Of a stretch of 33,649 nt of DNA, positions 12,428 to 20,305 are shown in pieces (position 1 is the stretch's first letter; the number at the start of each line of letters is the position of its first letter). The stretch is from Planctomycetota bacterium (GTDB taxonomy: Bacteria; Planctomycetota; Planctomycetia; Planctomycetales; Planctomycetaceae): positions 1 through 33,649 of the forward strand of contig QWPB01000022.1 in assembly GCA_003671275.1 (NCBI GenBank), written 5' to 3'. The notes under the pieces were generated by a model. It did no database searches and had not been told where the DNA came from. It was given only the letters and a program-made list of their open reading frames with translations. Both the position numbers and the translations under genes were made by a program.

Positions 12428-12937
12428 TCAGATCGCGTCAGGGGGCATGATCCCATCTCCCTCGACATCGTCCTCTTCGTCGTCCTGCTCTTCCAGGGAA
12501 TCCAACGCATCCAGTTCGTCGTCATCCAGCATCTCATCCGAAACAGCTGCCTCTGCTCCGTCGACACCTTCGGAGGCGGCCTTGCGAGCCGCGTCCTCGG
12601 CATCCAGTTTGCGCAGAATCAGACTGGCTTCGGCACTCTTTTTGATGCCATCATCAAGGATGAAGGTCAACACCGGGGTATACCGCAGGTCAAGGATCTC
12701 GGCGATTTTCCCCTGCAGGAAACCTCGACAAGCCTCCAACCCCTTCATGGTCAGCCGGGCGATCTTCTCGTCACCCAGCACGGAAACGTAGACCTTCGAG
12801 GTCCGCAGATCGGTCGGTGTCTCGACACTCAGCACGGTGACGTTCTTGACCCGCGGATCGCGCACCCCGAACAGTATCGCCCGGCTGATAACCTGGCGAA
12901 TGGCTTCGGCAACCTTAGCTGTACGGCGTGTGCTCAT
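12428..12937 (-). CDS. rbfA: 30S ribosome-binding factor A
   Basis: RbfA helps mature the 5' end of 16S rRNA and is needed for cold adaptation. The 169-residue protein has the KH-type core in residues 1-115: RRTAKVAEAIRQVISRAIL, DPRVKNVTVLSVETPTDLR, AKVYVSVLG-like TSKVYVSVLGDE, and RYTPVLTFILDDGIKKS. After this comes an acidic tail of about 50 residues (DEMLDDDELDALDSLEEQDDEEDD) that E. coli RbfA lacks in this form. It lies 57 bases after infB, the conserved nusA-infB-rbfA order. truB, which usually follows in other bacteria, is not here. Confidence 0.95.
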   Translation of the reverse strand: MSTRRTAKVAEAIRQVISRAILFGVRDPRVKNVTVLSVETPTDLRTSKVYVSVLGDEKIARLTMKGLEACRGFLQGKIAEILDLRYTPVLTFILDDGIKKSAEASLILRKLDAEDAARKAASEGVDGAEAAVSDEMLDDDELDALDSLEEQDDEEDDVEGDGIMPPDAI

Positions 12938-12994: not shown

Positions 12995-15844
<2,850 letters not shown>

Positions 15845-16060
15845 TCGTAACTCCTCGTCGACGCGACGGAGACTTCACGGGAGGCAACCCGCAGGGGGGC
15901 AGCGAAATCTCGGGGGGACCCCTGCCTGCTCCAGGAGTCGGGGGAACCTCGTCACCCCACGGCGGCTGTCATTCTCTTGATACTGCGACGCAATCTGGGA
16001 GCCCCAGCGGTTCCCCTCGGGGTCATTGTCCGCGCCGACAACAACCCTGCCTCCGTGCCG

Positions 16061-17383
16061 TTATGCTTGTCCGCCATCCCCTTCAGATTCCACAGGAGCT
16101 GCTGACTCAGGGGAAACCCCGGCCTCTGCGGGAGCGACCGGTGGTGTTACCGGTGCGGGCTTCTTTTCGCCCCGCCCCTGAGCATCGCGATCAGCCCGTT
16201 CAGCGGCCTTTCGCACCTTGTTTTCCTGTTCTTCCCGCTCGGATTCTTCCTCCGCGCGAGTGACGATTTCTTCACACTCTTCCGCACTCAGGCCACTCAA
16301 TTCCTGCAAGTGGTCCGGCTCAATGACCGACAGATCATCGAAGCTGAAAAATCCCTGCGAAACCAGCGCCTCAGCCAGATCCTCAGTCACCTGAGTGATC
16401 TGCGAGAAGGCCTGAACCGATCGATCGAGCTGTTCGTCCAGCTCTTCACGGGTCATCACGTCGATATCCCAGCCGACCAGCTTGGAGGCCAACCGGACAT
16501 TCTGACCCATCTTGCCGATGGCCAGCGACAGTTGATCTTCGCGGACGAGGACGATCACCTTGCCCAGCATGGGGCACATAATGACGTCTTCGACTTCCGC
16601 CGGTTGAAGGGCATTCGGAATCAGCACGGGAAGGGAGTCATTCCACCGCACGATGTCGATCCGCTCACCATCGAGCTCTTCAATGATGGTCTTGATCCGC
16701 GAGCCCCGCACACCGACGCAGGCCCCGACCGGATCAATGCTGTTATCAAAACACGACACAGCCACCTTGGATCGGTAACCCGCCTCCCGGGACAGCGAAC
16801 GGACTTCGATAATCCGTTCGGTGACTTCAGGAATCTCGACTTCGAACAGGCGACGGACCAGATCCGGGTGCTTTCGCGAGAGCACCACCTTGATTCGCGT
16901 CCCCTGCTTCCGCACTTCAAGAACGATAGCCCGAACGCGGTCGCCCACCTTGTGGGTTTCGCCGGGAATCTGCTCACTGCGGGGCAGCAGAGCTTCTACC
17001 TTGTCGAACTGCACGGTGGTCACGCTCTGATCGACACGGGTTACCGTTCCCGTAATCAGGTGCGTCCGGCGTTCGCTGTATTCATCAAACAGGGTATCCC
17101 GTTCCGCCTCGCGGATCTTCTGGATCATCACCTGCTTGGCCGTTTGGGCCGCAATCCGCCCCAAGATTCCCAACTCTTCTTCAGGGACGGGCTCTCCATC
17201 CACCAAAGCGGTCACCAGACCTGTTTTGCGCTCAATCGAGACCGTGATCGCACAGTCTTCGCCGTAGTGTTTGCGCGCGGCGGAAAGGATCGCCTGTTCG
17301 ATTCCCTCGAACACGATCGCTTCGTCGATTTTCTTATCGCGATGAATGGCATCGACGATTCTCAAAACCTCGGGGCCGTTCAT
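16061..17383 (-). CDS. nusA: Transcription termination/antitermination factor NusA
   Basis: NusA binds RNA polymerase and nascent RNA, and controls pausing, termination and antitermination. The start at ATG 17383 gives [20 protein letters not shown], the family N-terminus; the longer open frame upstream is not NusA-like. Order: N-terminal polymerase-binding domain 1-130, S1 domain about 135-200 ([15 protein letters not shown]), KH1/KH2 about 200-345 ([48 protein letters not shown]), then one helix-hairpin-helix-like segment ([22 protein letters not shown]), and a charged Glu/Arg/Ala tail. It heads the operon nusA-infB-rbfA. No rimP gene lies upstream, where many bacteria have it. Confidence 0.97.
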
Positions 17384-17464
17384 GGTGCTGCACCACACTT
17401 CCTGCCTGGAGCCGACTCCAGGGAATCCGCCACTTGCCCGCGAGCCGCCCCAGCGACCCTCGGG

Positions 17465-17495
17465 AACAAAAAAAGTGGGCACGAAGTCCCACTTT
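17465..17495 (-). terminator. Intrinsic terminator inside the nusA leader
   Basis: On the minus strand AAAGTGGG (17495-17488), an eight-base loop and CCCACTTT (17479-17472) form a perfect 8-bp stem, followed directly by further T residues (CCCACTTTTTTTGTT). It points toward nusA and lies upstream of its start codon. It would end any transcript entering from the leader unless read through. Confidence 0.75.
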
Positions 17496-17501
17496 GCGAC
17501 A

Positions 17502-17557
17502 CCGAAGCAAGCTTCGGCTTCCGGCGCAGCACTTCAGACGAGAATTCTCGCCGGAAG
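17502..17557 (-). repeat. Two hairpins preceding the leader terminator
   Basis: CCGAAGC-AA-GCTTCGG (17502-17517) is a perfect 7-bp palindrome. CTTCCGGCG (17518-17526) pairs exactly with CGCCGGAAG (17549-17557). They abut each other and lie just upstream (in transcription sense) of the terminator hairpin. Confidence 0.7.
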
Positions 17558-18034
17558 CGTGACGATCGGCCTGATTACGCCATTGCTGACATAAACAACC
17601 TCAGAGCACGGGCAGTGCCGGACATCGAACCGGAAACAGGACCGCCCGCTTCCGACCTGAGCGATGCAGCCTCTCCACACCCGTATTCTGTGGGTAGAAA
17701 CCGGCGGATGAACCTCGCTCCACGAAGGAACGGCGGCCCACCGACAGAGGGACTCCATCGCGACCTATCTAACATAAGAAGCCCCCCCTCGAAAGTCAAG
17801 CATTGGAGCCCCCTTTGCGAATCCGTCATGACTATACTAATGACGACATCCCCCCCTCGGCTCACCCGCGAAAGAGGGCAGTCCAAGGCCACATCCCCTT
17901 GAAGCCATTTCCACCAAATCACTCAACGTGCACATGCGTACACATGCAGTGATACCCACGTGTGCCTCCATGCAACTCGGCAAACTTCCCCCGTGCTGTT
18001 CGATCTACTGCCCCGCTCCGGGAGACGACCAATC

Positions 18035-20305
18035 ATGTTTGAATTGCCGGTCCTGAACCAGAATTCAACTCCGCCAACCTCGCGTTCGGGCCGCAAAGCA
18101 CGATTTCTCATCGAAGGGATGCACTGCGCAGGGTGCGTCGGACGGGCCGAGACGGGCCTGCGGGCGGTACCCGGCGTACTCGACGCTCAGGTGAATCTCG
18201 CCAACCGGGAAGCCCAGGTCACCCTCTCCGAAGATGCTCCCGAACCGAACTGGACATCCGTTCTGGCCCCACTCGGCTATCAGTTCCGACCACTTCCCGA
18301 TGCAACAACTCCTCCGGAGTCCCCCCCCAGCCCCATTCCATGGATCATCAGTCTGAGCTTCTCGGCTCTGGTGATGTGGCTCTGCACGGGCGGCGGCCAC
18401 TGGCCCGGAGCGCACCGGCTGGCAGCAGGACTCAGTGCCTTCGTCGTGTTTGGATTTGGAAGAGAGTTCTACCGCATCGCGTGGACACGCTGGCAACAAC
18501 GAACCTCGGACATGAACACCCTGATCGCCCTCGGATCAGGAGTGGCGTACATCGCGGGGCTGGTCGAACTCGGGCTGCACGGTGCGGGGCATGCTGTCTC
18601 TACGTCGGCAATGCCCTTTGACGCAGCGGCGATGATCGTTTCGTTTGTGCTTTTGGGACGATGGCTGGAGGCGCGGGCGCGACAGAGGGCCTCACGGGCG
18701 ATCGATGAACTCGGGGGGCTGATTCCACAAGAAGCCGTACTGCTGCGAAGAGATAACACGGAAGTCATCGTCCCCCTAGCTCAGGTGTGCGTCGCGGACC
18801 GGCTCCTCGTGCGACCAGGAAGTCGCCTGCCCGTGGATGGGCGTATCGAATCGGGACGGGCCGACCTCGACGAATCCCTGCTGACCGGAGAATCGCTTCC
18901 CGTGTCCCGCGGTCCTGGCGATTCGGTACTGGGAGGCTCCCTGTGTCATGGGGGCAGCCTCGTCGTTCAGGCTGAGCAGGTTGGCGACGCCACAACGCTG
19001 GGTCAGATCATCGGGTTGGTCCGGGACGCCCAGGGAACCAAGGCCCCCATCGCCCGGCTGGCGGATCGGATTGCACGGGTTTTCGTCCCCTCCATCCTCG
19101 GATTGGCTCTCACGACAAGCATTGCCTGGCTGATCCTGGCGACCGGTCCCGACCGTTTCGCACGAACCGTACAGGCGACGGTCAATGTGCTGGTCATCGC
19201 GTGTCCCTGCGCCTTGGGTCTGGCCACACCGGTGGCGGTCGTGGTGGCCATGGGGCGGGCAGCGCGGGAAGGACTGCTGATTCGGGATGGCGAGGCCCTG
19301 GAAACACTTGGCAAGGTGTCCCGGGTCGCCTTCGATAAAACCGGAACACTGACGATCGGACAGCCCCACGTGATAGCCTGGGAAGGGCTGGACCAGAACA
19401 GCGAGACGGCTCTCTCGGCGGCGAGGGCGGTGGCTCAGCTTTCCGAACACCCGTTGTCAGGGGCCATAGTGACGTGGATTGATACCGCCAGCGGAGCCCC
19501 TGCCGCCCCGCTTCCTGTCAGTGACTTTCAGAGCATTCCCGGACAAGGCATTCACGGAACCGTGGCGGGGCAGAACATCCGCCTGGAACGCGATCCTCTC
19601 GCCACGCCCGATCAACCGGGAACCAGGACAGCCTTATTCATCGACAATCAGCGAATTGGAAGCTTTGTCCTGCAGGATCAGCTGCGTCCGGAGGCTGCGG
19701 GAGTCATCGCCGCACTGCGAACCCTCGGTATCCAGACAGCCTTGCTGACTGGAGACCGGAAAGCGGTTGCCCAACAGGTCGCTCGCGAAGTCACCATTGA
19801 CGATCCCCGAGCCGAACTGCACCCAGGAGACAAGGGAAGCATTCTGCGTGACTGGCAGTCGCACGGAGAGGTCGTTGCCATGGTGGGAGATGGAATTAAC
19901 GATGCCCCCGCGCTGGCCATCGCGAATGTCGGAATGGCCCTCGGTTCCGGGACAGCTGTGGCCATGGCGACCGCCGATGTGACGGTCCTTTCGGGCTCAT
20001 TGCGAGGCGTGGTGGATGCGATCCTGTTGTCGCGACAAACGCTGCATGTGATTCGCCAGAATCTGGGATTCGCGATCGGATACAACCTGGTCGGAATCCC
20101 GCTGGCGGCGGGGCTGCTCTATCCGTGGACGGGCTGGCTGCTGCCCTCCTGGTTCGCTGCTGCGGCGATGTCTTCGAGCAGTGTCTGCGTGGTACTGAAC
20201 AGCCTGCGTCTGGGACGACGACCCGACCAACGACAAACGGACGCGAAAAACTCTGTTTCGCGTCCGTTGAAATCGTCTCTGTACGATAACCGTACGGGAA
20301 AGTGA
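18035..20305 (+). CDS. copA: Copper-exporting P1B-type ATPase (CopA-like)
   Basis: This ATP-driven Cu(I) exporter has 756 residues when started at ATG 18035 (GGAG about 11 bases upstream). An ATG 75 bases earlier is also open but adds no recognisable domain. One N-terminal heavy-metal-associated domain carries GMHCAGC (C31, C34). Membrane helices follow, then the TGES actuator (LTGESLPVS), the transmembrane metal motif IACPCALGLATP (about 389-391), phosphorylation motif DKTGT (D435), the SEHP nucleotide motif, and GDGINDAPAL. The YN pair in GYNLVGIP and MSSSS in the last helix match the Cu(I) P1B-1 group. No copper chaperone or regulator gene adjoins it. The 3' coding end contains a strong palindrome. 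Confidence 0.93.
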   Translation: MFELPVLNQNSTPPTSRSGRKARFLIEGMHCAGCVGRAETGLRAVPGVLDAQVNLANREAQVTLSEDAPEPNWTSVLAPLGYQFRPLPDATTPPESPPSPIPWIISLSFSALVMWLCTGGGHWPGAHRLAAGLSAFVVFGFGREFYRIAWTRWQQRTSDMNTLIALGSGVAYIAGLVELGLHGAGHAVSTSAMPFDAAAMIVSFVLLGRWLEARARQRASRAIDELGGLIPQEAVLLRRDNTEVIVPLAQVCVADRLLVRPGSRLPVDGRIESGRADLDESLLTGESLPVSRGPGDSVLGGSLCHGGSLVVQAEQVGDATTLGQIIGLVRDAQGTKAPIARLADRIARVFVPSILGLALTTSIAWLILATGPDRFARTVQATVNVLVIACPCALGLATPVAVVVAMGRAAREGLLIRDGEALETLGKVSRVAFDKTGTLTIGQPHVIAWEGLDQNSETALSAARAVAQLSEHPLSGAIVTWIDTASGAPAAPLPVSDFQSIPGQGIHGTVAGQNIRLERDPLATPDQPGTRTALFIDNQRIGSFVLQDQLRPEAAGVIAALRTLGIQTALLTGDRKAVAQQVAREVTIDDPRAELHPGDKGSILRDWQSHGEVVAMVGDGINDAPALAIANVGMALGSGTAVAMATADVTVLSGSLRGVVDAILLSRQTLHVIRQNLGFAIGYNLVGIPLAAGLLYPWTGWLLPSWFAAAAMSSSSVCVVLNSLRLGRRPDQRQTDAKNSVSRPLKSSLYDNRTGK
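20237..20267. terminator. 12-bp hairpin at the end of copA, possible bidirectional terminator
   Basis: ACGGACGCGAAA (20237-20248) and TTTCGCGTCCGT (20256-20267) form a perfect 12-bp stem with a seven-base loop. It lies inside the last codons of copA (stop at 20305) and about 65 bases beyond the csrA stop on the other strand. The A/T closing pairs near the loop and the lack of a long T-run make it an imperfect intrinsic terminator. It may serve both converging genes. Confidence 0.5.

Follow-up and report, generated by a model that had tools for sequence, protein, structure and literature searches.

The window, that is, the whole stretch of DNA that was analysed (33,649 nucleotides of a Planctomycetota contig), carries nusA, infB (encoding IF2) and rbfA in this order on the minus strand, with nusA as the first gene of the operon (Table 1). 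Pfam and NCBIfam matches bear out the identities that the first-pass annotation had given to these three genes, and its remark that a tRNA gene is absent holds for the window. A P-type ATPase gene runs in the opposite direction to nusA from about 18000. As that annotation had also claimed, a leader of about 380 nt separates a promoter-like pair from nusA, and an intrinsic terminator with seven T residues (T7) stands ahead of nusA on its strand. The leader had further been called gene-free, which is mostly correct, the exception being a five-codon ORF led by a Shine-Dalgarno (SD) sequence, hereafter the mini-ORF.

Table 1 Features of the nusA leader and operon in the window
Feature	Positions	Strand	Remarks
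Promoter TTGACT, 17-nt spacer, TATGTT	17771..17799	minus	Same promoter kind in 111/129 family leaders
SD sequence GAGG of the mini-ORF	17599..17602	minus	
Mini-ORF ATG TCA GCA ATG GCG TAA	17575..17592	minus	Family equivalent usually ATG-stop
Intrinsic terminator AAAGTGGGACTTCGTGCCCACTTTTTTT, stem AAAGTGGG/CCCACTTT, then T7	17468..17495	minus	nusA-specific by comparison
nusA	16061..17383	minus	ATG at 17383; Pfam and NCBIfam
infB (IF2)	12995..15844	minus	Downstream of nusA in the operon; Pfam and NCBIfam
rbfA	12428..12937	minus	Downstream in the nusA operon; Pfam and NCBIfam

Conservation of the terminator and promoter

The terminator of the window consists of a hairpin (17495-17472) and the T7 run (17474-17468), 85 nt ahead of nusA. 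In the region 15000-20000, three terminator-like sites were found and 3.5 were expected, so it is conservation and not the count that supports the terminator. Of the 150 genomes of the family sample, 143 had a NusA match, and 142 upstream stretches were compared, one genome without the NusA N-terminus (G063) being left out. Because the sequences are related and therefore not independent of each other, we also report numbers by genus. Using a loose pattern (GGG, 2-12 nt, CCC and a T-run within 500 nt upstream of nusA), we found the terminator at 129 of the 142 nusA loci; the 13 loci without it by this pattern were excluded from the mini-ORF counts. By eye, four of these 13 (L009, L016, L020 and L021) have a longer hairpin, T8 and ATG-TAG; in another (L095), the stem is present and the T-run is interrupted.

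The strict pattern AGTGGGN{2,10}CCCRCTTTTTT gave 112 matches in the 150 family genomes, and 107 of them lie on the nusA strand, 23-405 nt upstream of nusA; the backward control gave one match. The remaining five comprise an opposite-strand reading of the near-palindromic nusA site in G007 and four matches elsewhere, none of them upstream of nusA, at G090:C4:166619, G046:C225:4791, G132:C291:17376 and G067:C1:3894468. In the phylum sample (199 genomes), the pattern matched 29 times, five of these in the window's own family; 27 matches were at nusA and two were unplaceable, against five in the backward control. By this comparison, the terminator sequence is conserved and nearly exclusive to the front of nusA, in agreement with the T7 terminator of the first-pass annotation. 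With a looser pattern, it was detected in 24 of the 55 leaders from the class and phylum, and just four of these are among the 15 from the same class; the terminator is thus widespread without being universal. One base pair alternates between T-G and T-A across the family, and the core GTGGG / CCCRC is invariant in 51 of the 53 genera, an invariance that is partly imposed since the pattern itself requires the core and T4.

The promoter-like pair calls for the same caution. Only one sigma-70-type match (the pair itself) occurs in 15000-20000, with 0.8 expected by chance, so the match in the window proves nothing when taken alone. The conservation in relatives bears it out: TTGAC[AT]-N15-18-TAnnnT was found upstream of the mini-ORF position in 111/129 leaders (46/53 genera), and in 3/129 when the sequence was reversed. 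Driven by this promoter, transcription would start near 17764.

Regarding other RNA structure, the earlier description of two abutting hairpins followed by the terminator fits the fold of the window itself, in which none of 200 shuffles folds as well as 17560-17464 (z -3.88). Among the three hairpins, conservation extends to the terminator and not to the two abutting ones: the pre-terminator hairpin sequence is not kept in a same-genus relative, and over 53 genera the 43 nt before the terminator had a mean z of -0.72 versus -0.37 for a control stretch, which is no significant difference (Wilcoxon p 0.095). The corresponding values in the window were -0.4 and -2.3. In the minimum-energy fold of the whole leader, the terminator hairpin is not a separate element. 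A search for a conserved antiterminator in 50 genera found none, terminator-arm pairing being 0.62 in real and 0.64 in shuffled sequences. A small pairing excess (17.1 versus 4.4) lies 21-30 nt upstream of the mini-ORF ATG; a candidate antiterminator partner some 30 nt ahead of the ATG turned out, with a longer 5' flank and shuffles, to be mostly an end effect and was rejected. A hairpin round the mini-ORF AUG gave a weak signal (the observed sum was equalled or exceeded in 28 of 1000 re-pairings) and is not claimed.

A conserved mini-ORF upstream of the terminator

By sequence comparison, the conserved mini-ORF, noticed through common words in the leaders plus inspection, is a second module of the leader that the first-pass annotation missed. 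An ATG followed by a stop after 0-4 codons, between 175 and 70 nt before the terminator, was found in 122 of the 129 leaders, and the shortest such ORF had 0 codons in 77, 1 in 13, 2 in 6, 3 in 24 and 4 in 2 of them. When an SD was required, mini-ORFs of 0-4 codons lay 88-172 nt upstream of the terminator in 120/129 leaders and 50/53 genera. In a fixed interval 150-95 nt before the terminator, a mini-ORF was present in 117/129 leaders, compared with 1/129 at 110 nt further upstream, 4/129 at 90-35 nt before the terminator and a mean of 3.6 (maximum 9) in 20 shuffles. For bare start-stops only, the corresponding numbers were 69 in the fixed interval, 0 upstream, 1 downstream and 0.85 (maximum 5) in the shuffles.

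Several features of the mini-ORF are consistent with its being translated. ATG is directly followed by a stop in 90/129 loci, while the next best of the 64 trinucleotides reaches 23. When SD-led ATGs in the search interval are considered, the reading frame of the ATG meets a stop within five codons at 120 of 125 loci, compared with 16 and 26 loci for the two alternative frames. ATG-TRR sites comprise TAG (41), TGA (29), TAA (18) and TGG (1), and longer variants such as ATG-ATA-TAG, ATG-AGA-TAG, ATG-AAT-TAA, ATG-TTT-TAA and ATG-GAC-AAG-ATG-TAG keep the frame. Among relatives with the start-stop, 52 of the 73 SD occurrences begin at position -13 or -12 relative to the ATG. Together, the conserved SD, ATG and in-frame stop are signs of translation.

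In the window, the mini-ORF has five codons and is not a bare start-stop (ATG-TCA-GAA-ATG-GCG-TAA in a genus relative), and it lies about 100 nt upstream of the terminator, with 124 nt from its ATG to the end of the T-run. Its frame is open for 110 codons upstream, past the promoter; the resulting 115-aa open frame (17575-17922, minus strand), which ends at the mini-ORF stop and extends beyond the promoter, has no Pfam match and looks like a chance product of a G+C-rich stretch. The possibility that the mini-ORF is the tail of a longer ORF was rejected: with one leader per genus, the median open frame upstream was 25.5 codons in frame 0 versus 9 and 27 in the other frames, so there is no sign of a longer gene.

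The position of the mini-ORF was compared per genus (n=50). The ATG-to-terminator distance was 120 nt (sd 16), a spread partly set by the 85-175 nt search window with the neighbouring windows nearly empty, and the terminator-to-nusA distance was 121 nt (sd 86). Therefore, the mini-ORF appears tied to the terminator, not to nusA. A count over 80 named loci (1.08 Mb on the two strands together) gave 54 SD-led start-stops, of which 35 stand ahead of a nusA-type terminator. A mini-ORF and a terminator both precede nusA in 63 of the 80, for example in Thalassoglobus neptunius (L150), an uncultured Schlesneria (L158) and Gimesia (L186).

The element looks family-specific. A strict scan (SD and bare start-stop within 450 nt) detected it in 75/142 family leaders and 0/55 leaders from the class and phylum. 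With a lax SD, one of the 24 class and phylum leaders that have the terminator contains a mini-ORF in the family range (L298, ATG-TGA, 142 nt before the terminator), and in five more, an ORF of 1-3 codons lies nearer to it. Within the family, the mini-ORF is missing in 9/129 leaders, and seven of these are without any short ATG ORF, including all four loci of one genus (L105, L106, L109 and L110), which have nothing of the kind at the expected position and an altered stem, GTAGGG..CCCTGC; in this genus, the mini-ORF may have been naturally lost or replaced. In the open literature searched, on start-stop ORFs, rimP leaders, nusA autoregulation and planctomycete nusA leaders or start sites, nothing came up that describes a start-stop ORF ahead of nusA.

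Candidate effector and related attenuators

Among the closest known systems is the rimP-leader, an attenuator for which the authors named NusA as the likely effector (Naville and Gautheret 2010, PMC2965389). As reported in the available text, both leaders have a short GGG..CCC stem with a T-run before the nusA/infB operon and no antiterminator, and the signature is specific to this operon here too (107/112 matches in the family; 27/29 in the phylum). The systems differ in gene order, as rimP is the first gene there and nusA is first here, where RimP domains were found in 0/40 relatives (25 from the family, 15 from the class) by both Pfam models; each model matches 10 of 14 control genomes, and a very diverged RimP could escape both. 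As no such domain was found, RimP is unlikely to be the effector. Of the 199 genomes in the phylum sample, 20 had a match to the N-terminal model (RimP_N), 18 of them above the cut-off; where compared, the matches in Planctomycetota were on other contigs or at other places, never beside nusA. By analogy, NusA is the best effector candidate for the terminator, and the persistence of the terminator where RimP was not found supports the preference of the rimP-leader authors for NusA.

The sequences may differ as well. The inner c/g of the rimP-leader stem (GGGc..gCCC; PMC2965389) is here mostly A and G or T: in the tabulated genera, the loop starts with AC in 27, AT in 8 and TC/TT/CG/CA in 12, and it ends with G in 24, T in 21 and A in 4 of 49. 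The start-stop mini-ORF is an addition here, the available text of that report describing no larger conserved element. The Rfam rimP covariance model (RF01770), which among the 14 control genomes matches E. coli only, had no match in the window or in its own genome. Scanning the window against Rfam gave nothing at gathering score; under relaxed settings, three weak matches appeared, the best being a viral tRNA-like pseudoknot (E 0.25), and were taken as chance.

Feedback of NusA by leader attenuation is already published for other bacteria (PMC2965389, PMC12288461, PMC4448216). NusA of B. subtilis autoregulates by attenuation according to a review (PMC12288461), and autoregulation in S. agalactiae was suggested from a short leader RNA (PMC4448216). 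The B. subtilis nusA leader shares with the present one an intrinsic terminator in the 5' leader; stimulation by NusA is reported there and would be assumed here, and the available account mentions no mini-ORF (PMC12288461). The E. coli metY-rimP-nusA-infB leader likewise has terminators ahead of the operon, with NusA feedback reported (PMC6511841), and its sequence carries a CTGGGCTTTAGGCCC-T7 terminator; it differs in having a tRNA gene and rimP ahead of nusA (PMC6511841), the tRNA being absent in this window. Bacterial minigenes are also very short SD-led leader ORFs that act in cis, but in the part of the literature covered (PMC8708949) they act on the translation or stability of the next gene, whereas here a terminator accompanies the mini-ORF, which is conserved across 50 genera.

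A proposed attenuator and its alternatives

The comparison of relatives indicates that the order of promoter, mini-ORF, nusA-specific terminator and nusA is conserved. From this arrangement, we propose that the leader may be a transcription attenuator of nusA-infB-rbfA, in which NusA exerts feedback and a ribosome at the mini-ORF opposes termination; we assign this reading a probability of roughly 0.6. By analogy with B. subtilis, NusA would promote termination at 17495-17468, and high NusA would lower the expression of its own operon. The first-pass annotation had already suggested such feedback, and the comparison supports it well: the terminator sequence is conserved, almost confined to nusA and retained in relatives in which no RimP was detected. 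The effect of NusA is what we infer. The terminator thus probably lets NusA limit its own production. At the mini-ORF, a ribosome would initiate, hardly elongate and therefore park, and the parked ribosome or initiation complex could contact RNA polymerase by mRNA looping, so that NusA would be kept from its pause- and termination-promoting state. Plentiful translation initiation would then lead to more readthrough; this direction, like the choice of NusA and ribosomes as the two inputs, we infer from the arrangement and from work on other bacteria. With E. coli components, a NusA pause is shortened 2.2-fold by a ribosome with 106 nt of mRNA in between; the ribosome is still coupled at 156 nt and blocks the pause-promoting pose of NusA, as reported in PMC11711091, and a 30S initiation complex can reportedly couple to a paused polymerase (PMC12820379).

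More tentatively, and with a chance we consider clearly below even, the leader could be a two-input attenuator without any RNA switch. The start-stop ORF would sense translation initiation, hence the output of IF2 and RbfA, the nusA-specific terminator would sense NusA, and the two would be joined by long-range ribosome-polymerase coupling. If true, both sensors would read products of the same operon, which includes the IF2 gene. IF2 binds NusA in E. coli, through domains that, per the authors, are not conserved throughout bacteria (PMC12297416).

The proposed attenuator is useful in two respects. First, it extends the rimP-leader attenuator to lineages in which RimP was not found, a natural experiment favouring NusA over RimP as effector. 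Second, a start-stop site about 120 nt before the nusA terminator is a conserved natural construct for an in vivo test of the ribosome rescue of NusA-paused polymerase that has been reported over 100-150 nt of looped mRNA.

Several alternatives were considered. Simple NusA feedback as in B. subtilis, with a role of the mini-ORF unrelated to termination, would explain why the terminator motif reaches across the phylum without the mini-ORF and why no antiterminator was found; we regard it as somewhat unlikely, as the spacing of the mini-ORF varies little relative to the terminator, unlike its spacing to nusA, within the spread that the 85-175 nt search window allows. Also, an SD-bound ribosome might act as a stabiliser that shields the leader or mRNA from ribonuclease, for which precedents are reported in the part of PMC8708949 covered: minigenes of toxin-antitoxin and other leaders whose effect comes from SD binding or from translation. 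This is improbable, because a stabiliser would need the SD only, and here the in-frame stops and the spacing to the terminator are both maintained.

Still less probable is that the AUGUR motif is a protein-bound RNA hairpin and no translated ORF. A short stem could flank the AUG in some genera (its length exceeds that in 972 of 1000 re-pairings), and in one lineage NUAG sits in the loop of a long hairpin; however, all three stops are used with TGG at 1/89 ATG-TRR sites, in-frame stops are kept upon codon insertion, and the SD is at a normal distance. We give very little weight to the idea that the terminator ends a small RNA made from the promoter, with nusA read from a separate downstream start. 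Although the product of about 300 nt would be a discrete RNA, there is a single promoter-like match in 15000-20000, the part of the leader that separates the modules differs even between members of one genus, and the terminator tracks nusA.

As a minor observation, the leaders of L039, L040, L059, L060, L063, L066, L107 and their relatives carry ATG-GAC/GGC-AAG-ATN-TAG within a long hairpin (GAAATGG..CCATTTC). In leaders of this type, the first ATG is retained and the second degenerates into ATT or ATC.
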